Source: Lebetimonas natsushimae (GTDB lineage Bacteria; Campylobacterota; Campylobacteria; Campylobacterales; Nautiliaceae). From it: 64,000 nucleotides of DNA. How positions within the stretch are numbered: the first letter of the stretch is position 1; each line of letters begins with the position of its first letter. Below the pieces are notes generated by a model, which was given only the letters and a program-made list of their open reading frames with translations, was not told the origin of the DNA and did not search any database. Where the stretch lies: positions 186,001-250,000 of the forward strand of contig NZ_BDME01000002.1 of NCBI RefSeq assembly GCF_002335445.1. The letters are read 5' to 3'. The position numbers were made by a program, and so were the translations under genes. Below, in pieces: positions 7,635-20,020 of the stretch.

Positions 7635-8249
7635 TTAATCTTCCCATCTTCTCCATCCGAATCCTCTACCAAATCCTCTTCCGTAACCTCTACCAAATCC
7701 ACGGCCAAAACCAAAACCTCTGCCATAGCCGCGTCCTAAACCTCTACCGTATCCAAAACCTCTTCCATATCCATATTCTCTATCTAATTCATCTCTTTCA
7801 AAATCTCTGTCATAGTCAATGTCTCTTCTATAACCAAAACCTCTTCCGTAGCCATATCTTCTACCATATCCGAAACCTCTACCAAATCCTCTCATATCTT
7901 CCTCCTTAATTTGATTTAGTACATTTTCAATATTTTTTTCATCTGTTTGATAAGGAATAATTCCCTCTCTTTCAAGATTAAAAGCTATACCTTCCCCAAA
8001 TTCCCTTGACACCAATACGTTTACCCCCGCTTCTGCCAAAAGTGGAGGTATTACCCTACCAGTCCCAAGCCCTCTCTCACCTTCTTTTGTGCCTTTTAAA
8101 TCAATGTGTTCTTCTTGAATTTGTTTCATTATAGGATTTTCAATATAAAATTTTTCTCCTGTTTCGGTATCTATAATCAATAATCCTTTGCAAAGTCCTA
8201 TATGACCTGCTATTGTTTCTTTATTGTTTGTTGGAAATGCAATTTTCAT
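7635..8249 (-). CDS. NifX/MTH1175-type protein fused in frame to a Gly/Arg-rich tail
   Basis: Residues 1-118 are a dinitrogenase iron-molybdenum cofactor-type domain (NifB/NifX/MTH1175 fold): MKIAFPTNN start, an AGHIG loop, and GTGRVIPPLLAEAGVNVLVS. Residues 119-204 are an RGFGYGRG-type low-complexity tail. An ATG at codon 119 (7893-7895) is preceded by TAAGGAGG (7901-7908), a near-perfect ribosome site at 5-base spacing, so the tail can probably also be made as a separate 86-residue protein. Upstream is the DUF134 regulator, 10 bases away, and downstream the paralogous Gly/Arg-rich gene. No nif genes are present, so a role in metal-cluster or redox handling is only inferred. Confidence 0.8.
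   Translation of the reverse strand: MKIAFPTNNKETIAGHIGLCKGLLIIDTETGEKFYIENPIMKQIQEEHIDLKGTKEGERGLGTGRVIPPLLAEAGVNVLVSREFGEGIAFNLEREGIIPYQTDEKNIENVLNQIKEEDMRGFGRGFGYGRRYGYGRGFGYRRDIDYDRDFERDELDREYGYGRGFGYGRGLGRGYGRGFGFGRGFGRGYGRGFGRGFGWRRWED
7893..7908 (-). promoter_or_regulatory. internal ribosome binding site and start inside the NifX-like gene
   Basis: On the minus strand TAAGGAGG (7908-7901), five bases, then ATG (7895-7893) begins MRGFGRGF. It is as strong as the site of the gene's own start and lies exactly at the domain boundary. Confidence 0.55.
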
Positions 8250-8601: not shown

Positions 8602-9603
8602 TTATTTGATTTTTTTAAATTCAAAAAAAGCAGGTTTTTCTTTTCCGTCTTTTGTTTTTAGGCCCCAATATTTTTCTGCTATATTAAAATAACCTTTATG
8701 TAAAGGATTGTCTATATAATTAAAATAATTTATTCCGATTAAATGAGCACTTTTTTTGAAAAGAGGTAAGAGTGAATTTAATTTTTTAATTACTTGTGTT
8801 TGGATTTTATCATTTTTATAACTTGATATTGCCAAATAAGCTAAAAATGTAGGTTTTTTATATTTTTGATAGAGATATATTGAAAAAGCCAGAGCCCTTT
8901 CAGGTGTGTTTAAAATTTCTTTTTTTTTGTTTTTTGTAACAGCTCTCATTTCCTGAAATGCAACAAAATCACTTACTCTTACGCTGTAATCAATATTTTT
9001 GGTATCATAATCCCAATTTTCATTATCCCATATTCTGTCATATATTCCAAAATCTCCGAAGCATATACCTATCTTGGTATTTTTTACTTTTTCTTTTATG
9101 TCTAATATAGATTTGGCTTGCAGGTAATCAAATTTTTTATATTCTGAAATGTTATTTTCATTGAATTCAGGATTAAAAATGATTATTTTTTCTCCATTTA
9201 TTTTTTGGAGAAATTTTGAAAATTTTTTTATTGCATTTAAATAGTTGTTTTTATTTTTTTTGACAAATTCAGGTGATATATCATCTCCAAACCAGTAAAA
9301 TATAAAAATTGGAGTGTAACCTTTTTTTATAAAATTGTTTATTGTTTTAGCCGGATACCAGTATTCTTTCCAATCTTTTGTAATCCATATTGAAATTGCA
9401 TTTACATTAGGGAGTTCTTTTTTTAAAAAGTAACTTATGTTTTTTCTTTTTTTAAACAGACATTTTTTACTGTATGTGCTTATTGTCTTATTATGATATT
9501 CGCATACACTAAATCCTCCGACTCCTATATAAAAAGAATAGACATTAGTAATAAACAAAAATGGCAATGTTAGATAATGGATTAATTTCTGAAATTTCAA
9601 CAT
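8602..9603 (-). CDS. secreted glycosidase-like protein of the polysaccharide operon
   Basis: 333 residues beginning with a signal peptide or membrane anchor (KLIHYLTLPFLFITNVYS). The body looks like a TIM-barrel glycoside hydrolase: GYTPIFIFYWFGDD and IIIFNPEFNENN resemble strand-end motifs with a candidate catalytic Glu. The C-terminal INYFNYIDNPLHKGYFNI segment resembles the barrel end where an aromatic substrate platform sits. I cannot name a GH family. It is the last gene of the operon and overlaps the deacetylase by 59 bases, with AAGGA eight bases before its ATG. By analogy with the hydrolase half of PgaB it may trim the exported polymer, which is inference. Confidence 0.6.
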   Translation of the reverse strand: MLKFQKLIHYLTLPFLFITNVYSFYIGVGGFSVCEYHNKTISTYSKKCLFKKRKNISYFLKKELPNVNAISIWITKDWKEYWYPAKTINNFIKKGYTPIFIFYWFGDDISPEFVKKNKNNYLNAIKKFSKFLQKINGEKIIIFNPEFNENNISEYKKFDYLQAKSILDIKEKVKNTKIGICFGDFGIYDRIWDNENWDYDTKNIDYSVRVSDFVAFQEMRAVTKNKKKEILNTPERALAFSIYLYQKYKKPTFLAYLAISSYKNDKIQTQVIKKLNSLLPLFKKSAHLIGINYFNYIDNPLHKGYFNIAEKYWGLKTKDGKEKPAFFEFKKIK

Positions 9604-11347
9604 CCATATATTCCTTGGTTTTTTTAATTATTTTTATTTTGGAATTTACAATTTCTGTAACTATTGATTTTATTTTTATATCAGGGGTGTAAATTCTTAT
9701 TTTTAGATTTTTTATTGAAATTTTATTTTTATTGTTAATATTGATAACAGCTTTATTATTATAAAAAGCTGTGGATATATGAATGTTTTTTTTCCAGTAA
9801 TATCTTTTAATTAAATCCATACCCTTTAAAGGCATAATGTCTTTTTTTGTTTTTAAATAATCAAAGTATGCTTTTTCAATAGCAATATTGGATTTATAAC
9901 TTAAAAGGTGGGTATGAACACTTAGGGTATAAATAGTATTTATTTTGGTTAAAAAATCTGTTTCATATATTATTCTTTTTAAGATTTTGGTTTTATCCCA
10001 GTCAAGCTGTACCAAATAAAGATAATCGTCTGTACCGTGTCTTGGAATAGTTACAATTCCTTTATATTCTTCTTTTGGCAGTAAATAAGGTTTTTCTTTT
10101 TCCATAACATACTTATATCCCCCTTTTATTAATAAATTTATCATTGTTTTGTCGATTTCTTCTCTTGGTGGTCTGAATCCGTAAATTTTTTTGTTTATAA
10201 TTTTTTCTAAAATCTGTTTGGAACCAATAGTTTCTTGTTTATATTTTTCTAATGTAGTTCCTACTATTTTAGTATGTGAATAACTGTGGGAGCCTATTTC
10301 AACATTGGAAAATTTACTTTCCTTTTTTGTGATTTCTGGATATTCTTCAGCAAGTTTTGCTACACAAAACATTGTAACGTTAATGTCATATTTGTTCGCA
10401 AGAGTTGCAAAGTTAAGTCCGTAAGGATATTCATATTCTGTGTCTTCTGAAATGAATACGGCCTTTTTATAGTCTATATACGGATAAATGGATACTGTAA
10501 TAGGATTTTTGAAATAATTAATAATATTATTTAATATAAAGTTAAAATCGTTATTATTCAAATCTAACAATACATAAAGGGGAAAATTAAAATATAGCCA
10601 GTTTCCCTTCATATATTTCCCATGCCATACCGCTCCATCTTCATAAAAATCTAAAAGTTTGTTTGTGTCTAAATCCATTAAGGTGGAAGTGATTGCCCAG
10701 TTTGTATATACAAAATCTGGAATTTTTGATGACCTAAAAACAGGTATTATATCCCCTCCGTATAATGCCGAATCAATTCTATGAGCTTTTGTAGATGAAA
10801 GTATAAAAGGAGATAAAACTTTGGGTACCAAGAAAGGTGAATTTTTTTTTGAAATACCTTCCTTAATGTATTTTAATTTTGTAATTTCCTCTATTCTTTT
10901 GGCTTTTACTAATTTATTGTTATCCATATATCCAAAATGATAATTAAAAATAATATTTCCTCCGTTTGCTAAAAATTGTTTTATTATATTAAACTCTTTT
11001 TTACTGATTGAAATAATATCAGGTAATATTATTATAGAGTTTTCAGGAATATTTTTTATATCTTCAATATTGATTATTTTGCTTTTTATATTTGCCGTTA
11101 GGAATTTGTTTTGAAGTTTTATTATATTGTCTTTATAATTGTCTAAAATCCCAATATCCAAAAAATAATCATTGTTTGTATTTGAATTAATTATATATAT
11201 ATCAGTTTTTTCTTTGTTATTGAAAAATGAAAAGTTTAATTTGTTTTTAGGAAATACTTGATAAAAGAAATATCCCATGAAAATTACCATTAAAAGAAGA
11301 AAAAATATTATCATCACATCATATTTCAGTCTATTCAAAGAATACAT
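9545..11347 (-). CDS. membrane-anchored polysaccharide deacetylase (NodB/CE4 type)
   Basis: 600 residues from the chosen start at 11347, whose ATG follows a GGAGGAGA site; an ATG six codons upstream lacks one. Residues ~10-32 are a membrane anchor. Residues ~45-160 form an alpha/beta domain resembling ThuA/GATase-like folds (SIIILPDIISISKKEF, then LANGGNIIFNYHFGY). The CE4 deacetylase domain follows from ~300 to 460: SEDTE at the metal/base position, GSHSYSHT as the metal-binding HxxxH, RPPREE as motif 3 and IPRHGTDDY later. A beta-rich tail ends the protein. It probably removes N-acetyl groups from the polymer in the periplasm, like the deacetylase half of PgaB, but lacks a fused glycosidase half; that seems to be the next gene. 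Confidence 0.8.
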   Translation of the reverse strand: MYSLNRLKYDVMIIFFLLLMVIFMGYFFYQVFPKNKLNFSFFNNKEKTDIYIINSNTNNDYFLDIGILDNYKDNIIKLQNKFLTANIKSKIINIEDIKNIPENSIIILPDIISISKKEFNIIKQFLANGGNIIFNYHFGYMDNNKLVKAKRIEEITKLKYIKEGISKKNSPFLVPKVLSPFILSSTKAHRIDSALYGGDIIPVFRSSKIPDFVYTNWAITSTLMDLDTNKLLDFYEDGAVWHGKYMKGNWLYFNFPLYVLLDLNNNDFNFILNNIINYFKNPITVSIYPYIDYKKAVFISEDTEYEYPYGLNFATLANKYDINVTMFCVAKLAEEYPEITKKESKFSNVEIGSHSYSHTKIVGTTLEKYKQETIGSKQILEKIINKKIYGFRPPREEIDKTMINLLIKGGYKYVMEKEKPYLLPKEEYKGIVTIPRHGTDDYLYLVQLDWDKTKILKRIIYETDFLTKINTIYTLSVHTHLLSYKSNIAIEKAYFDYLKTKKDIMPLKGMDLIKRYYWKKNIHISTAFYNNKAVININNKNKISIKNLKIRIYTPDIKIKSIVTEIVNSKIKIIKKTKEYMDVEISEINPLSNIAIFVYY

Positions 11348-11513
11348 ATTCTCCTCCGATTTCATCTAAAATTTCTTCATATAATTTTTTTTTGTTTATA
11401 TTTTTTTTACTTGCCTCTCTTTTTTTATATAAAAAATATGCAAGTACACCAAAAACCAAAGTTAGTATTGTTATTACTAAAATTAACATTGATAAAAAAG
11501 CCAAAAGATTCAT
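11331..11513 (-). CDS. small single-span membrane protein, PgaD-like by position
   Basis: 60 residues from the ATG at 11513. Its ATGA overlaps the stop of the synthase gene, and AAAGGGAG lies just upstream; a longer frame from 11543 lacks a ribosome site. One hydrophobic helix (LLAFLSMLILVITILTLVFG) is followed by a Lys-rich cytoplasmic tail and an acidic end (EEILDEIGGEYVFFE). It sits directly after a PgaC-type GT2 synthase, where PNAG operons place PgaD, a small membrane subunit needed with PgaC for c-di-GMP-dependent synthesis. Sequence similarity to PgaD itself is not evident; the role is inferred from position and topology. Confidence 0.6.
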   Translation of the reverse strand: MNLLAFLSMLILVITILTLVFGVLAYFLYKKREASKKNINKKKLYEEILDEIGGEYVFFE

Positions 11514-12817
11514 ATTCTCCCTTTCCTCTCCAATTTTCCCCAACTCATTTCAATTCCAAACCATTCTTCTATTGTAGCTAAAATTTTAGCAATATTTATT
11601 ATTGTAATAAAAAATAATCTGTAAAATACCGCATAAAACATTAAACTTAAATCTTCTCCCGTTACAAGCAGACAATAAAACGCTCCCGCCATATCTACGA
11701 TTGTAAACATTAACCACCAGTAAAAAATTAAAATACTGACTCCTGATGTTAGAGCTAAATAAATTATAAATATATTTGTCCATACATCGATAAATGGCCA
11801 GAAAATACCTTCAAAAAGCATATACCATAACGTTATTGAAGCTGCGGGATTAATTTTAAAATGCCATAATAAGTGTTTGTGTTTTTTTATGGATTGTAAA
11901 ATCCCTCTTGTCCATCTATATCTCTGTTTTATTAAATCAAGTAAATTTTCAGGTGCTTCAGTATAAGCTACTGCATCGCTTTCAAAATCAATTTTATATC
12001 CTTTAGCGATAAGTTTTAATGTAACATCACAATCTTCTGCAAATGTATCGTCATCATAAAGTCCAACTTCATACAAAGCTTCTTTTCTAAACATTCCGAT
12101 GGGGCCGGGGATTATATTTACAAGTTTAACTAATGCCTGACCGTTTCTTATCATATTAAGTCCCTCAATATATTCAAGGGCCTGTAATTTAGTTATTAGA
12201 TTTACTTTATTTGCCACAAATACACTGCCCGCAACAGCAGCTATATCTGGATCTGTAAAATATTTTTGCATAAGTTCGACTGCATTTTTTTCAAGCTTTG
12301 AATCCGCATCAACTACCATTATTATTTCGCCAGTGGAATTTTTTATTCCCATATTAATAGCACTGGCTTTGCCTCCGTTAGGTTTTTTTATAGGTATTAC
12401 CGGTTTATTGTATTTATTGTGTATAAATTTTGAAGCAATTTTATATGTATTATCTGTGCTACCATCATCTACAACAATTATTTCCATATATGGGTAGGTT
12501 TGTTTTAGGAGTGATTCGATAGATGAAGCAATTACCGCTTCTTCATTATATGCAGGTATAATTACAGAAACTTTATGATTGATAATATTTTCAAATTCTC
12601 CTTCATCAGCTGTTTTAAATATTGTTTTTAACATTGAAAAAAATAGCATTATCATATATCTGAGCAATACCAAAGAAGTAAAAAACAAAATTATTCCATA
12701 ACCTATTTTTGCAAAAATATTGTTTATTAAATAAAAATCCCTGTAAAAAAAATACATTATTATTCCAAGCAGTACAATTAATAAAATAGTTATTAAAAAA
12801 ACAGTAAAATCTTTCAC
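11510..12817 (-). CDS. processive GT2 glycosyltransferase (PgaC/NodC-type polysaccharide synthase)
   Basis: About 435 residues, the size of PgaC. Two N-terminal membrane helices precede the GT-A domain: VSVIIPAYNEE at its start, VVDDGSTDNT for UDP binding, DADSK as the DxD metal motif, TFAEDCDVTL with the catalytic Asp, and QRYRWTRG, the processivity (QxxRW) motif. Membrane helices follow to the C-terminus. The preferred start is GTG at 12817, where GTGA overlaps the stop of the upstream gene behind AGGGAAAG; an ATG nine codons earlier (12844) has no ribosome site. It would polymerise and translocate a beta-linked sugar across the inner membrane. There is no PilZ domain, so any c-di-GMP control must come through partners. 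Confidence 0.88.
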   Translation of the reverse strand: MKDFTVFLITILLIVLLGIIMYFFYRDFYLINNIFAKIGYGIILFFTSLVLLRYMIMLFFSMLKTIFKTADEGEFENIINHKVSVIIPAYNEEAVIASSIESLLKQTYPYMEIIVVDDGSTDNTYKIASKFIHNKYNKPVIPIKKPNGGKASAINMGIKNSTGEIIMVVDADSKLEKNAVELMQKYFTDPDIAAVAGSVFVANKVNLITKLQALEYIEGLNMIRNGQALVKLVNIIPGPIGMFRKEALYEVGLYDDDTFAEDCDVTLKLIAKGYKIDFESDAVAYTEAPENLLDLIKQRYRWTRGILQSIKKHKHLLWHFKINPAASITLWYMLFEGIFWPFIDVWTNIFIIYLALTSGVSILIFYWWLMFTIVDMAGAFYCLLVTGEDLSLMFYAVFYRLFFITIINIAKILATIEEWFGIEMSWGKLERKGRI

Positions 12818-15800
12818 CAGTCTTTCCCTATGGTAAATATACATTCATAAAAATTATAATTATTAGAAGAGAAATTTTTAGAAGAGTTACTGTATTTACA
12901 ACCCAATCTACTGTAAAAAGAATCAAAATTTATTGTATCAATCCATCCGCCTATTTCATATAGTTTTATTCTGTCCCAAAAACTATAACCTATTCCGGCT
13001 TTTGCAACTAAATGTAAATATTTTGAGATATTATTATTGTATTTTATACCTATTATGTTGTTATCAATTTTATTAGGGGAATAATAACACTCAGACTGTT
13101 TTGAGTTAAACTGATACCATCCTGAAAAATATATGTTAATCGGTTTTAAATATAATATGTCAGTGTCTATTTGGGGAGTAAACACACTGTTTCCATCGTC
13201 AATTTTTTCATAAGCTATTGAATACCATAATTCTTTATGGTTAGAGTAATTGTAATTGGTAATTTCTGCTTTTAATCTTTTATGTTTTGAGGCACATATC
13301 GTTTTTCTTGAATATACGAGATTACGTTTATTTAAATTAAATAAAAAATAAGGAAATCTATAACTTAAATCCCATCCGATGGAGTTTGTTCCGCTGTTAT
13401 CTTTAAAAACATCCATTGTCAATCTGTTTTTTGTAAATCCCATTCCTGTATCATTTCCACTTTTTTGAGCGTTTTTTTCATAAATTTTATACCACCTGTG
13501 AAATAAAAAAATGTCAAAATTTTTAAAACTTCTTTTATATTGTAAATAATGAGTCAGCATTTTTGTTTGTTGATTGTCTTTAAAATAATCTAAATTATAA
13601 ATCAGATGATTTTTATAATAACTGTAATTTAACAAATCTGAAGAAAGAATTTTGTTTATTTTCGCTTTATTGATGCTTTTTAATTTTATATATTGATAAT
13701 TTAAAGTTTGATTTTCTTCTACCAGCTTTTTTTTTGAAGTTAATTTAATCGGAGAACTCAAATTGGATTCGTTTAAATATTTTGATATATTTTCTTCGAT
13801 TGTTTGAATATTTTGTGTATTGTTAAAGTTGTTAATATTTTCATTAATTACTTTTTGGGGATTAAAAGGTTTTTTTTTTAAATTTTTTAAATTTTCATAT
13901 ATATATTTTTCTAATGAGTCATTTTTATTATAAGGGATATATTTTCCGGCTTTCCATTGTTCTTTTATAATTTTGCAATTTGTTTTATTGTTACATTTGA
14001 TCCATAAAGTTTTGTAACCTTTGTCTTTTTTGTTTTTTGATGCATATGTCTGAAAAAATTTTACAATATAAATATTTTTTTCTTTTTTAATTAAAACAGG
14101 ATCATAAATACCAACGCTTATAAACCATGCATTTTTAAATATATTTTGTTTTCTTAATTTCCAATAAATATTGTTTTTTATTTTTTTGTCATAAAAAGAG
14201 GAGTATTTTTCAAAATTCATACTCTCCCAGGCTTTTTTCCATTGTTCTAAAAAGTTTTTTAAGAAGTTTGGCAAAGGTTTTGGTAAAGAAGATAAAATTT
14301 CTTTGTATATTTTTTTTGCTTTATCAATTTGTCCGGATTGTTGTAAGTTATAAGCATAGTGATATTTTGTTAAATTATCATTTTTATACCACATTAAAAG
14401 AAAAAATTCACCTGCTGCTTTTTTATACTCTTTATTATATTCCAATGTATAAGCATATTTTTCCCTGACATTATAATCATTTGGGTTTAATATCAAATAA
14501 TTTTTGTAATAATCGCCCGCAGTTGCATAAAAACCGTTAAAATATGCCCTGTCTCCAAATACAAGAAGTTCTTTTGACTTGTTGTTAAAGTATTCATCAA
14601 TTGTTGCAGCGGAAGATGAATTTACAAATCTAGGGTTTATTTTTAAAATTTTTGCTTTTAAAATAACAGCATCTTCATAATTAGGATATTTTTTTAATAT
14701 ATCATCAACAACTGAAAGAGCTTCCCTGTTGAATCCATACCAGTAATATCTTTTAGCCAAATCCAAATATGCTTCTTTTGTATTTTTCATATTTGCATAA
14801 TATTCTAAATATCCGAAAGCTTTATAATAGTTTTTAAGTGCTAGGTAAATATCTCCCAATGTTTTATATGTTTCTATTTTTTCAGGATGAAGTTTCAAAT
14901 ATTTTTCATAAAATTGTGCAGCTTTTTTATAATTTTTGTCTTGATAATATAAATCGGCCAATTTTAAAATAACTTCTTCACTAGGATTTTTTAAATAAAT
15001 TTTTTCATATTTTTTTATTAGGGGTTTGACATTTCCGCTTAAAATCATTAAAGCTTCTTTTACTTCTTCATCATCAGGGTTTTGTTTTAAAAGTTTTTCA
15101 AAAATTTTTTTAGCTTTTTCTTTTTTGTCTTGCCACATGGCTATAAATCCAAGCATTTTTAAAGCTTCATATTTTTCTTGAATATTACCATTGTCATATA
15201 CATCGCTTAAATAAACTATTGCTTTATCATAATTTCCATCCCATGCAAATATTTTACCAATAAGCAGTTTTGCTTTAACTGAATTTAAATTTCTTAAATA
15301 TTTTAGAGCCTGTTTTGTATCACCGTTCCAGGTAAGAACTTTTGCAAAAAAGATTTTTGCATTGTCATCTGTAGGATTGTTTTTTATGTATTCTTCCATT
15401 AATTTGTAGGCTTTTTCTTTGTCTTCATTGTATAATGCATAAAAAAGAGGTTGTAAATTTTTAAAGGTAGGTTCTTTTTTGTAATTTTCATATAATTTTT
15501 TAATGTATTCTTCTTTTAGTTTATTAAGTTTTTCTTCATATTCTTTAACTATTGGATTATTTCCGTTTCTTTTCAGATAAAAGAGTAATTTTTTTGCATT
15601 TTCTATATCTTTATTGATTAAATATATATCTAAAAGTTTTTTTGCATATTCTAATTTACCGGTAGAATAATATAAAATTTTAAAATATTTTTCGGCTTCT
15701 TTTAATTTCCCCATATAATAGTAGTCATATGCTTTTATTTCATAAACATCTACATTTTTTTTATCTTTTACAAAATTTAATAAGTATAATGAATCATTAT

Positions 15801-16194
15801 ATTTACCTTCCCACATATATACTCTAGCAATTTTTAACAAACTTTCATCTTTTAAAGTATCAATTTTTTTATAGCTTTTATAAGCTTCAAAAAAATTTAG
15901 AAGTTCTTTATATTTTTGTTTATCATAAAGGTCTTTAATTTTTTGATTTGCATTGGTGGTTTTAAATTTTATGATATAAAGAAATTGTTTTGCATATTTG
16001 TTGTTTTTGTCTTTTTTTAATACATCATTTATGTACTTTAAAGCTTTTGTTTCATTTTTGTCTATATAATATTTTATTAATACCAACCTGTTATTAATAT
16101 CATCAGGATTGGAAGTAACTTCTTTTTCCAAAGATGAAATGTTTATATCAATGGCAAATAAAAAAGTTCCTATTAATAAAATAATTCTTTTCAT
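12814..16194 (-). CDS. outer-membrane TPR / NTF2-like / beta-barrel export protein (PgaA-like)
   Basis: About 1126 residues. Start chosen at 16194, where ATGA overlaps the upstream stop and a signal peptide begins (MKRIILLIGTFLFAIDI); a frame from 16221 would bury the ribosome site AAAAGGA. Residues ~20-640 are successive TPR helices (for example YYYMGKLKEAEKYFKIL, ALKNYYKAFGYLEYY). Residues ~645-750 look like the NTF2-type domain of epsilonproteobacterial L,D-transpeptidases such as Csd6 (FLEQWKKAWESMN, then KGYKTLWIK). From ~835 to the end are amphipathic strands ending in an aromatic residue, consistent with a C-terminal barrel. TPR plus barrel is the PgaA layout for polymer export; the inserted NTF2-like domain is unusual. 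Confidence 0.8.
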   Translation of the reverse strand: MKRIILLIGTFLFAIDINISSLEKEVTSNPDDINNRLVLIKYYIDKNETKALKYINDVLKKDKNNKYAKQFLYIIKFKTTNANQKIKDLYDKQKYKELLNFFEAYKSYKKIDTLKDESLLKIARVYMWEGKYNDSLYLLNFVKDKKNVDVYEIKAYDYYYMGKLKEAEKYFKILYYSTGKLEYAKKLLDIYLINKDIENAKKLLFYLKRNGNNPIVKEYEEKLNKLKEEYIKKLYENYKKEPTFKNLQPLFYALYNEDKEKAYKLMEEYIKNNPTDDNAKIFFAKVLTWNGDTKQALKYLRNLNSVKAKLLIGKIFAWDGNYDKAIVYLSDVYDNGNIQEKYEALKMLGFIAMWQDKKEKAKKIFEKLLKQNPDDEEVKEALMILSGNVKPLIKKYEKIYLKNPSEEVILKLADLYYQDKNYKKAAQFYEKYLKLHPEKIETYKTLGDIYLALKNYYKAFGYLEYYANMKNTKEAYLDLAKRYYWYGFNREALSVVDDILKKYPNYEDAVILKAKILKINPRFVNSSSAATIDEYFNNKSKELLVFGDRAYFNGFYATAGDYYKNYLILNPNDYNVREKYAYTLEYNKEYKKAAGEFFLLMWYKNDNLTKYHYAYNLQQSGQIDKAKKIYKEILSSLPKPLPNFLKNFLEQWKKAWESMNFEKYSSFYDKKIKNNIYWKLRKQNIFKNAWFISVGIYDPVLIKKEKNIYIVKFFQTYASKNKKDKGYKTLWIKCNNKTNCKIIKEQWKAGKYIPYNKNDSLEKYIYENLKNLKKKPFNPQKVINENINNFNNTQNIQTIEENISKYLNESNLSSPIKLTSKKKLVEENQTLNYQYIKLKSINKAKINKILSSDLLNYSYYKNHLIYNLDYFKDNQQTKMLTHYLQYKRSFKNFDIFLFHRWYKIYEKNAQKSGNDTGMGFTKNRLTMDVFKDNSGTNSIGWDLSYRFPYFLFNLNKRNLVYSRKTICASKHKRLKAEITNYNYSNHKELWYSIAYEKIDDGNSVFTPQIDTDILYLKPINIYFSGWYQFNSKQSECYYSPNKIDNNIIGIKYNNNISKYLHLVAKAGIGYSFWDRIKLYEIGGWIDTINFDSFYSRLGCKYSNSSKNFSSNNYNFYECIFTIGKDW

Positions 16195-17522
16195 TTGCAT
16201 ATATCCTTTTTTTCCGGCCATTCTATTGCTTCAATTATTTCATATTCGTTTTTGTTGAGATTGAATTTGTTTTTTAATCTGTTTTCAAAAAATATTTTTG
16301 TTACATCAATTAGAATTATACAGGTAAATTTTTCAGATTTAAAAATAAAATCATGCATTCTTAGTTTTTTTTCGATATTATTGATTTTTTTGTTTAATTT
16401 AATGATTGAAAAATATATCTTTTCGTTGTATAAATTTTTAATGATTTCATTTAAATTTTTTGATGACATTATCTGTTTTAACGCAGGCAGTTTTTGTATA
16501 ATTTTTGTATAAAAATAATTGTTTGTTGCTTTTTCCAATATAAAAATATATTCTTCTAAATTAAAAATTTTAGGTATTATTTCATAACATCCTAAATAGT
16601 TGATTTCCATTTTGTCTTCTGTTCTTATAAAATCTTTGTTTATAAAGTAAATAATTTTAGAATTAAATTTGTTTTCTTTTACCAAATTACAAACTGTTCT
16701 ATCAGGTCTTTCTTCTCCAGTCTGATATATGATAAGATCGGGATTTTGCATAATTTTACTTAATACTTCTCCAATAGTTTTGGCAAATAATAAATCAAAA
16801 TATTTTTCAAAAAGATATTTGTGTAATTTTATAAAATATTCATCTTTGGAAATTATCAGCATTTTCGGTTTTGTTTTTATTGTTATATTTTCATTTCTTT
16901 GTGTATTGTCTTTTAATTTTTCTAAACTGAAATTTTTTAGTGAAAAAAAATATTCATAACTTTCCAGAGGATATATTGAATTTTTAATAATTATTTTTCT
17001 CAAATTGTTTTCGTTTTTTATTAAGAAAGTGATATCAGTATAATTTTCACTGAATTTACTAATAACCGAATCAATATCTGTAGTGATAAAAAGTTTAAAA
17101 TTAAGAGTGTTTTTTAAATTAATTAAATTTTCTATAAAAGTTTTTGCATATTCAAATTCTATTTCGCTAAACATTAAATCAGGTCTGTGAAAAATTAAAG
17201 TATCGGGTTTTTTATCATTGATTAATTTGTTTAAATCCTCTGTCAGTAAATCAAAACCGTAAGATGTTTTTATATTTTCCCAATTGCTTTTTAAAGAATA
17301 TAATTGAATGTTTTGGAATATTTTTTGAAAATTATTATTTTGTGTGTTTTTTAAATTATCTAATCGTTTTTGAATTATGGATTTATTTATAGTGGATATT
17401 AATAACGGATTGTTTATATTTAATTTATTTAGCATAAAAAGTGAAAAAGTAAGTTTTCCTGATTTGCTATTACCTTCTATAAGTGAAAAATCCGATTTTT
17501 TAATCGCTTCTATCAACTGCAT
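16191..17522 (-). CDS. BcsE-like regulator: degenerate NTPase, REC and GGDEF-remnant (GIL-like) domains
   Basis: 443 residues. Residues ~1-200 form a RecA-like fold with a P-loop relic (EGNSKSGKLTFS); the expected acidic Walker B residue is His (TLIFHRPD). Residues ~218-335 are a receiver-like domain without the phospho-acceptor Asp (PDLIIYQTG). Residues ~350-443 match the end of a GGDEF domain in which R388-M-H-D391 falls exactly at the RxxD inhibitory-site position, while GGDEF itself is replaced (EKFTC). The order NTPase-REC-GGDEF remnant is that of BcsE, which binds c-di-GMP through its GIL domain in enterobacterial cellulose synthesis. ATG follows the kinase stop directly, behind AAGGA. 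Homology to BcsE itself is inferred from architecture. Confidence 0.6.
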   Translation of the reverse strand: MQLIEAIKKSDFSLIEGNSKSGKLTFSLFMLNKLNINNPLLISTINKSIIQKRLDNLKNTQNNNFQKIFQNIQLYSLKSNWENIKTSYGFDLLTEDLNKLINDKKPDTLIFHRPDLMFSEIEFEYAKTFIENLINLKNTLNFKLFITTDIDSVISKFSENYTDITFLIKNENNLRKIIIKNSIYPLESYEYFFSLKNFSLEKLKDNTQRNENITIKTKPKMLIISKDEYFIKLHKYLFEKYFDLLFAKTIGEVLSKIMQNPDLIIYQTGEERPDRTVCNLVKENKFNSKIIYFINKDFIRTEDKMEINYLGCYEIIPKIFNLEEYIFILEKATNNYFYTKIIQKLPALKQIMSSKNLNEIIKNLYNEKIYFSIIKLNKKINNIEKKLRMHDFIFKSEKFTCIILIDVTKIFFENRLKNKFNLNKNEYEIIEAIEWPEKKDICK

Positions 17523-19325
17523 TTATTTTCCTTGTATTAATAATTCCGGTTTTAATTTGAGAAGTAATTTTTCTGCTATTTTATCATTTTTATTTTCCAA
17601 TATTTTGTAGAGATAGTTTTTAGCCTTTTGAATATCGTTTAATTTTATATATGTTTTAGCAAGTAAGAGGTTAATTTTATAATTATCTGTATTTTTAGGC
17701 AAAATATTTATTATTTTTTTATAATTTTTTGATTTGAAATAAAATTCTGCTAATAAATATAAAGTTTCATTGTTTTTTGCAATTTCACACGCTTTTTTTG
17801 CATATAAAATTCCATTGTTGTTATTTTCTTTCAATAAAATCGTTCCGTATAAATAATATGGTTTATAAGAGATATTGTTTATAGTTTTAATGGATTTTTG
17901 CAAATATCTTTTAGCAGTGAGAATATCATTTTGTTTATATGCTTCTAAAGCCTTGTAATAATTTATTAAAGAAATAAAGGTAAATTTTTTAAAAGGAGAA
18001 TATAAATTGTCTTTAATGGCTTGAATTTTACCATACCATCTGCCATCAGGTAAATTATCTAATGTAATTATTTTTTTATCGGTATCAATTTCTTTAATAG
18101 TTGAAATATTATTATTTTTTAGCAAGTAAATTCTAAAGTTTTTATATATAGACTGCCAGGCTATTTTGACAATTTTGCCAGATTTTATAAAAATTTTTTC
18201 AACTTTTTTTGGAAGAGGTACTATTTTTAATTTATTTGAAACAACTAAACCTTTGTTTTTAGGAATTATAAAATTTTTCGCCTTTATTTTTCCGTTAAAT
18301 ACACTTACGCTAGTTTCTTTTTTTACATTTGTTTCAAATTCTGTTCCTAAATTTTTTAAACTTATATAAGGAGAGATAACTTTTATTTTATTTCCGTTTG
18401 TTTTGATATATGTATCAGCTCTTGATATGATAATTTTTGTTTTAAATTTATTAGAAAAAAGATTTTTATATGCTTTAATTTTATATTTATCATTTATATA
18501 ACTTTTTATAAAAACTCCGTTTTCAAGCATTGCAATTTTTATATTGCCATTAGTTTTATATTTAATATTTTGAGGGAAAAAGCAAAAAAAATAATTTATG
18601 ATAAGAGAAGATATGAGTATAAATGAACTCATGGCTAATGTCAATTGTTGTATTTTTATTTTTTTAGCAATTTTGGGCAGTAGAATATAAAAAGAAGTGC
18701 CTTTGTTTTTTTCACTTTCAAAATATATTTTTCCACCTAATGTTTTAATTACGGCTTTTACAAAATTAAGTCCAATTCCGCTTCCTGTTTTATCTGTTGT
18801 AAAATATCTTTTAAATATTTCTTTTTGTTCTTCTTTTGATATACCTATGCCGGTATCTTTTATGGTAATTAAAAAATTTTTTTCATTCTCGTCTATGAGA
18901 ATAATAATTTTTCCGTTTTGTTTATTATATTTTATTGCATTATGAAGAATATTGTATATTGCTTTTTTTAACCATTTTTCATCTGCTTTTATACAAGCGT
19001 CTTTTTTTGTAAAATAAATGGTTATATTCTTTTTTTCAGTTTCTGTTTGCAGCTCGTTTATAACTTTTTCTATTAAATCACCTAAGTTTATATTTTTATA
19101 ATTTAAAAATCTTTCTTTTTTGTATTGATCTAATTCAAGATAATCTAATACCAAATCAATTGATTCTTCTGTTGTAATGGAAATTTTTTGAAGGATGTCT
19201 TTTTCTTTTTCGGGAGAGAGTTTTTTGTTTAAAAGTAAAAAAAGATTAAATTTTATACTGAATAATTTGTTTTTTAAATCATGAAAAAATACTTTAGCTA
19301 ATGAATCTTTTTTTACCTTAAACAA
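17523..19325 (-). CDS. inside-out histidine kinase with C-terminal FecR, FN3-like and TPR part
   Basis: 600 residues. The protein opens with a kinase and no sensor: His15 in FFHDLKNKL is the H-box, HNAIKYN the N-box, DTGIGIS the G1 box and GSGIGLNFV the G2 box. One membrane helix follows at ~229-250 (ISSLIINYFFCFF). The rest should be periplasmic: a FecR-type beta domain at ~285-350 (LGTEFETNVKKETSVSVF), an FN3-like domain (LPDGRWYGKIQAI) and TPR helices to the end. Ordinary kinases put the sensor first; here it is last. It is encoded between its response regulator and the export genes, suggesting that it senses the envelope or secretion apparatus. H and ATP-site residues are intact, so it should be active. 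Confidence 0.82.
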   Translation of the reverse strand: MFKVKKDSLAKVFFHDLKNKLFSIKFNLFLLLNKKLSPEKEKDILQKISITTEESIDLVLDYLELDQYKKERFLNYKNINLGDLIEKVINELQTETEKKNITIYFTKKDACIKADEKWLKKAIYNILHNAIKYNKQNGKIIILIDENEKNFLITIKDTGIGISKEEQKEIFKRYFTTDKTGSGIGLNFVKAVIKTLGGKIYFESEKNKGTSFYILLPKIAKKIKIQQLTLAMSSFILISSLIINYFFCFFPQNIKYKTNGNIKIAMLENGVFIKSYINDKYKIKAYKNLFSNKFKTKIIISRADTYIKTNGNKIKVISPYISLKNLGTEFETNVKKETSVSVFNGKIKAKNFIIPKNKGLVVSNKLKIVPLPKKVEKIFIKSGKIVKIAWQSIYKNFRIYLLKNNNISTIKEIDTDKKIITLDNLPDGRWYGKIQAIKDNLYSPFKKFTFISLINYYKALEAYKQNDILTAKRYLQKSIKTINNISYKPYYLYGTILLKENNNNGILYAKKACEIAKNNETLYLLAEFYFKSKNYKKIINILPKNTDNYKINLLLAKTYIKLNDIQKAKNYLYKILENKNDKIAEKLLLKLKPELLIQGK

Positions 19326-19387: not shown

Positions 19388-20020
19388 TTAAGTTATATTT
19401 AATTTATAGCCTATTTCTCTTTTTGATATTATTAAATCTTTTTTCCCCAATTTTTTTCTTAGTCTTTTAACCAAAGCCGCTATCGTATTATCCGGTACAT
19501 ATTCATTCCATATATGAAGTGCGATTTCTGCAGTAGATAAAAATCTGTGTTTATTTTTTAATAATACTTCTAAAAGCATAGATTCTTTATGTGTTAATTC
19601 AATATTCTCATTGTTAATTATAAGCTCTTTGGTGTTTTTGTCATAAAAAATACCAGAATCAATTTTAATACGATTTAAATTATATAATTTTTTGATTCTT
19701 ATTAAAATTTCTTCAGGTTCGAAAGGTTTTTTAATAAAGTCATCAGCACCTAAATTATAAGCCGTTTTTATGTTTTTTATATCACTGTGAGAGGATATTA
19801 TAATAATTTTACCTTTGTCAATTAAATTTCTTTTTTTCATTTCTTCTAAAAAATTTCCGTCACCTAGTGCTATGTCAGCTATTATTACATTATACGTATT
19901 ATCGTCTTTTAAAAAATCTTTTAAATTATAAAAAGAATATATTTTATATCCTTCCATCTCAAGCAGTGTTGAAATGGCATCATTTAAAAAAGTTTCATCC
20001 TCAATTACTGCTATTTTCAT
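19388..20020 (-). CDS. OmpR/PhoB-family response regulator of the polysaccharide operon
   Basis: 210 residues. The receiver domain (1-115) has the acidic pair (VIEDE), the phospho-acceptor Asp in NVIIADIALGDG, Ser/Thr in IIISSHSD and Lys in FIKKPFEPEE. The C-terminal winged helix (~125-210) has the OmpR pattern (ELTHKESMLLEVLL, then IAALVKRLRKKLG). The start lies inside the end of uvrA (20-base overlap), with AAAGGGG upstream, so its translation is tied to uvrA messages. The kinase gene follows 62 bases later. It probably controls this operon or related envelope genes; no target site was identified. Confidence 0.9.
   Translation of the reverse strand: MKIAVIEDETFLNDAISTLLEMEGYKIYSFYNLKDFLKDDNTYNVIIADIALGDGNFLEEMKKRNLIDKGKIIIISSHSDIKNIKTAYNLGADDFIKKPFEPEEILIRIKKLYNLNRIKIDSGIFYDKNTKELIINNENIELTHKESMLLEVLLKNKHRFLSTAEIALHIWNEYVPDNTIAALVKRLRKKLGKKDLIISKREIGYKLNIT

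Follow-up and report, generated by a model that had tools for sequence, protein, structure and literature searches.

A BcsE-architecture protein with two invariant RxxD motifs is a candidate c-di-GMP receptor for a PilZ-less, PgaC-like synthase in a deep-sea bacterium

BcsE has so far been described as a cellulose secretion accessory, and the PNAG synthase PgaC and its c-di-GMP-dependent partner (PgaCD) bind c-di-GMP themselves, without a known c-di-GMP domain. The GIL region of BcsE is a degenerate REC-GGDEF tandem with an I-site (R415TGD), and the last ~40 residues of the protein form an unresolved tail (PMC7439463). The degenerate receiver (REC*) adds a second I-site, R306ATD, and the composite pocket holds an intercalated c-di-GMP dimer (dual site ~140 nM, against ~2.5 uM) (PMC11470070). 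Our literature search, which was partial in coverage and does not establish absence, found no paper on a BcsE-like protein in Campylobacterota.

The window analysed here, a stretch of 64,000 nucleotides from Lebetimonas natsushimae (NZ_BDME01000002.1, positions 186,001 to 250,000), contains an intact ORF for a BcsE-architecture protein of 443 aa (P0001; 17522..16191, minus strand), recognised from the ORF, its AlphaFold model and Foldseek. It is present as a single copy in the 1.64-Mb genome. In minus-strand order, the locus encodes an OmpR-type response regulator (19388..20020), a histidine kinase whose C-terminal part has FecR-like and TPR regions (17523..19325), P0001, a TPR/outer-membrane export protein (12814..16221; TPR match, with only a weak match to the PgaA model), a PgaC/IcaA-like GT2 synthase (11510..12844; Pfam, and TIGR03937 at 5.8e-58, below that model's cut-off), a NodB-type polysaccharide deacetylase that also has an amidotransferase-like domain at its N-terminus (9545..11365; PF01522 at 8.7e-17, PF08532 weak) and a conserved 333-aa protein (8602..9603). 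The ATG of P0001 comes immediately after the kinase stop codon, and the probable start of the TPR export gene is an ATG at 16200 or 16194, overlapping the 3' end of the BcsE-like gene. Pfam searches found no PilZ domain in the operon, GT2 included, and neither a PgaD-like small gene nor BcsR/Q/F/G-like neighbours were seen there; BcsB was not found in the genome. A scan of the operon for terminators and promoters gave a result no better than chance. The operon is taken to serve a surface polysaccharide and is not a cellulose operon, in agreement with the first-pass annotation, which had described a non-cellulose operon with a PilZ-less synthase.

Several neighbouring features deserve mention in their own right. 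The 333-aa protein has no Pfam, NCBIfam or PDB match, yet it is 40–62% identical to its counterparts in most sister operons. The histidine kinase has its kinase domains at the N-terminus, followed by a likely membrane helix and then the FecR-like and TPR regions, which is an inverted sensor-kinase order. A further minus-strand gene (7635..8249) encodes a protein in which a Nitro_FeMo-Co domain is combined with a long repeat tail rich in Gly, Arg and Tyr.

No Pfam or NCBIfam model matches P0001, and its domains were assigned by structure prediction and family alignment. Residues 1–205 (16908..17522) form a degenerate RecA/KaiC-like NTPase domain, for which Foldseek returns BcsE and then KaiC; one member of the family matches the Pfam KaiC ATPase at 0.0042. 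Within it, the family alignment places a P-loop relic, GNSKSGKL, at residues 17–24 (17451..17474). The Gly-Lys of this loop (G17xxxxG22K23) is kept family-wide, the S/T after Lys is usually replaced, mostly by L, and FHR occupies the position of the Walker B acid. One member (L022:1456-2841) has a complete Walker A (GKRNSGKS) and lies on a contig other than that of the synthase genes. Residues 218–336 (16515..16871) form a degenerate receiver: in an hmmsearch against PDB receiver domains, the family profile matches at residues 225–340, with an NtrC-type REC at E = 1.7e-5. The phospho-acceptor Asp expected at the end of beta3 is absent from the query ('PDLIIYQT') and from 16/17 members, being present in L078 only, and a phosphorylatable response regulator was rejected for this reason.

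The full-length AlphaFold model has a mean pLDDT of 85 and a pTM of 0.51, so single domains are well predicted and the inter-domain arrangement is not. When this model was compared with the PDB using Foldseek, three E. coli BcsE chains ranked on top (best 4.5e-13), with KaiC next. As KaiC was close behind and the TM-scores were low, probably owing to the domain arrangement, the full-length search is not specific by itself, and the C-terminal domain was therefore searched alone.

The isolated C-terminal domain (residues 338–443; 16194..16511) is predicted at pLDDT 87.7 and pTM 0.80, and AF2, Foldseek and hhalign together identify it as a degenerate GGDEF domain (GGDEF*). Its best PDB match is BcsE (6tj0_B, probability 0.98, E = 0.015). 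BcsE entries supply 10 of the top 12 matches and T. maritima one, a GGDEF domain; the matches to BcsE are moderate (TM-scores 0.47–0.63, rmsd 4–6 A, E-values 0.015–0.1). The domain contains R388MHD391 (16350..16361), followed five residues on by EKFTC and then by IILID. A GG[DE]EF motif occurs in 0/17 members, which rules out an active diguanylate cyclase as a class. HMMER searches of the PDB with the C-terminal profile did not find GGDEF, so the fold is not settled by sequence search alone, and we used the structure search together with shuffled controls. When hhalign was run on the last 106 residues of the family against 8 canonical GGDEF domains from this genome, R388xxD391 fell on RxxD and the alignment ran gap-free through the GG[DE]EF position, with a score of 21.4 that was reached by 0/300 column shuffles. 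Against the GGDEF* of BcsE the score was 21.8 (0/300 shuffles; best shuffle 16.7). As a yardstick, the GGDEF* of BcsE itself scored no better than shuffles against canonical GGDEF (56/300 reached its score), so weak sequence scores are to be expected for this fold. The first-pass annotation had proposed from the letters alone that P0001 follows the BcsE domain order, with a P-loop relic lacking the Walker B acid, a receiver-like domain lacking its Asp and a GGDEF remnant with RMHD at RxxD, EKFTC and IILID. Each of these elements was borne out, and the structure prediction and fold comparison that it had suggested did return a GGDEF-like C-terminus.

P0001 belongs to a Campylobacterota family. 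Whole-genome searches yielded 17 members, the others being 22–45% identical to the 443-aa query. Where contigs are named, the close relatives come from Nautiliaceae MAGs, which by kinship share the family of the window and place it in Nautiliaceae; tblastn searches of plasmids found no relatives. Only six columns are invariant across the 17 members (R300, D303, F337, Y338, R388 and D391), and four of these make up two RxxD motifs: R388MHD391 and R300TED303 (16614..16625). The latter lies in REC* at the position of R306ATD in BcsE and was absent from the first-pass annotation; the observation is confirmed and is stronger than first noted. Searching the phylum also gave weak extra matches (E 1e-7 to 1e-3). 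Most of them fall on the receiver region and were taken as ordinary receiver domains, 15 of which served as controls for the REC* motif. Since these controls carry the Asp in 11 cases and the Arg in 1, the Arg is the distinctive part of R300xxD303. Two loci (L025:9103-9903 and L082:5726-6535) encode a standalone REC*-GGDEF* that has no NTPase domain; in the genomes concerned, the deacetylase of the operon was not found.

In an unconstrained hhalign comparison of the family with 10 BcsE sequences, R300/D303 fell on R306/D309, within a gapless block, and R388/D391 fell on R415/D418. The REC-GGDEF* score was 20.8, against 19.7 for the best of 400 column shuffles (nominal E-value 0.035), and profile-profile E-values with BcsE are weak overall (0.03–0.07). 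P0001 thus shares with BcsE the NTPase*-REC*-GGDEF* order, the degeneration of both receiver and cyclase, an RxxD at matching positions in each of the last two domains, and linkage to genes for a polysaccharide synthase and a TPR outer-membrane exporter. However, identity is about 12%, the phylum is another one, and in Pfam searches of 11 members, with E allowed up to 10, the BcsE model (PF10995) did not appear among the matches. The P-loop Gly-Lys is lost in BcsE but largely kept in the Campylobacterota family, and the partner here is a PgaC-like GT2 without PilZ. BcsE has a long BcsQ-binding C-terminal tail, whereas P0001 ends ~12 residues past its last predicted strand, and the extra ligand contact H445 of BcsE has no evident counterpart. 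We have not filed P0001 as BcsE, because the sequence model does not recognise it, its operon lacks the cellulose partners and it has no such tail. The best reading is that it works like BcsE, which would entail c-di-GMP binding and control of the synthase.

Other known systems resemble the locus in part. PelD likewise combines a degenerate GGDEF and its I-site RxxD with an operon whose synthase has no PilZ, but its four membrane helices and GAF domain stand where P0001 has KaiC-like and REC domains, and membership in PelD was rejected on these grounds. As in the PgaCD system, a GT2 nearest to PgaC is encoded with a deacetylase and a TPR outer-membrane protein; the BcsE-like protein is found here instead of a PgaD-like partner. 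PleD-type REC-GGDEF cyclases also place a receiver before a GGDEF fold with an I-site, but P0001 has neither GG[DE]EF nor the phospho-acceptor Asp, and it has an extra N-terminal NTPase-like domain.

In the window, as in L014-L021 and L077-L081, the gene immediately downstream of the BcsE-like gene is the one for the TPR export protein, and wherever the contig extends far enough the synthase and deacetylase come after it. Every full-length copy whose surroundings could be read sits beside the TPR-porin/GT2/deacetylase genes, with the exception of two genomes in which the synthase is on another contig. Adjacency to the kinase and regulator is seen in Nautiliaceae and in L077 but not in L021 or L078-L081. 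As these latter loci keep only the synthase/export link, the BcsE-like gene travels with the synthase and not with the two-component system. Of 397 genomes drawn from the phylum, 10 have the full-length protein, and these are also the 10 that have the deacetylase (a raw count that ignores kinship); in G041 and G056 they co-occur though on different contigs. G026 and G045 have the REC*-GGDEF* form only, with no match to the deacetylase, and the genomes G016 and G017 are incomplete, breaking off at contig ends. A deacetylase without the BcsE-like protein in G031 was considered as a counterexample and rejected, as it is a lone paralogue, 30% identical, with no synthase genes beside it. Near a lone deacetylase relative, L093:2782-6506 carries three adjacent double-receiver genes with a GGDEF-like C-terminus. 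In three loci (L079:6070-9221, L081:1563-5014 and L021:2116-5638) the TPR-porin is encoded as two ORFs, a TPR part and a barrel part, possibly through sequencing error; this split resembles AlgK/AlgE rather than PgaA.

We consider P0001 to be a cytosolic BcsE-architecture c-di-GMP receptor dedicated to the operon's PilZ-less PgaC-like GT2 synthase, with a probability of roughly 0.74. Computation supports the architecture, the fold, both RxxD motifs and the synthase linkage. The first-pass annotation had raised c-di-GMP binding conditionally, as a possible control of the synthase, and this idea fits the invariance of the dual I-site as well as the synteny and the co-occurrence. In the mechanism that we infer, a composite pocket of R388xxD391 and R300xxD303 would take up c-di-GMP, probably in the form of an intercalated dimer, which would bridge GGDEF* and REC* and close one domain against the other, as in E. 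coli BcsE. The NTPase-like domain may dimerise P0001 or anchor it at the synthase, presumably through contact with the GT2, and the closed form would promote, rather than inhibit, the assembly or activity of the synthase-export complex. A synthase without PilZ would in this way come under c-di-GMP control.

The same fold could serve another input. If the RxxD sites bound a different nucleotide, or held REC* and GGDEF* together by salt bridges, P0001 would be a synthase scaffold and no c-di-GMP sensor; invariance reflects constraint and says nothing about the identity of a ligand, and the missing match to H445 is in keeping with this. Yet in PelD, BcsE and active cyclases an RxxD at this place in the GGDEF fold serves as the I-site (PMC7439463, PMC8461298), and the genome encodes 23 GGDEF domains (with 9 EAL domains) against only one PilZ protein, which leads us to regard a different input or a scaffold role as improbable. 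Vent Campylobacterota are known to have many cyclases (PMC2628731). Still less probable is that P0001 is a partner of the neighbouring kinase and regulator and has operon transcription, instead of the synthase, as its target. The receiver-like domain and, in Nautiliaceae, the position directly behind the kinase would suit such a role, as would the binding of Nus factors by the N-terminal domain of BcsE (PMC7439463), but the receiver has no acceptor Asp, and the export/synthase link persists in loci where the kinase and regulator are not adjacent.

A separate matter is origin. REC-GGDEF tandems are common, and a KaiC-like domain could have been joined to a receiver and a degenerate GGDEF independently, with the shared sites reflecting common c-di-GMP chemistry. 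The marginal sequence scores to BcsE agree with such convergence, as do the standalone REC*-GGDEF* proteins of L025 and L082 and the split BcsE genes of P. putida (PMC7439463). We nevertheless think it unlikely, considering that the three-domain order is identical, that a gapless block covers the second half of the receiver with R300 on R306, and that the C-terminal domain alone still ranks BcsE first in the PDB. Convergence would in any case be compatible with the same function.

A broader view, which we offer as speculation and hold to be doubtful, is that BcsE is one branch of a wider group of synthase-attached c-di-GMP sensors, the Campylobacterota sensor being the sole c-di-GMP input of its PilZ-less synthase and responding jointly to c-di-GMP and to the energy or nucleotide state. 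The NTPase domain, in which the P-loop Gly-Lys is kept and, in L022, the motif is complete, may also sense or use a nucleotide.

With both motifs unchanged in 17/17 members examined, our results suggest that the BcsE-type c-di-GMP switch is not confined to cellulose. If so, the occurrence of the same architecture and both I-sites with a different synthase in another phylum would make the sensor a reusable module, and it would supply the missing c-di-GMP input for PgaC-like synthases that have neither PilZ nor PgaD. For this deep-sea bacterium, whose genome has one recognised PilZ receptor, P0001 provides one definite candidate c-di-GMP receptor.
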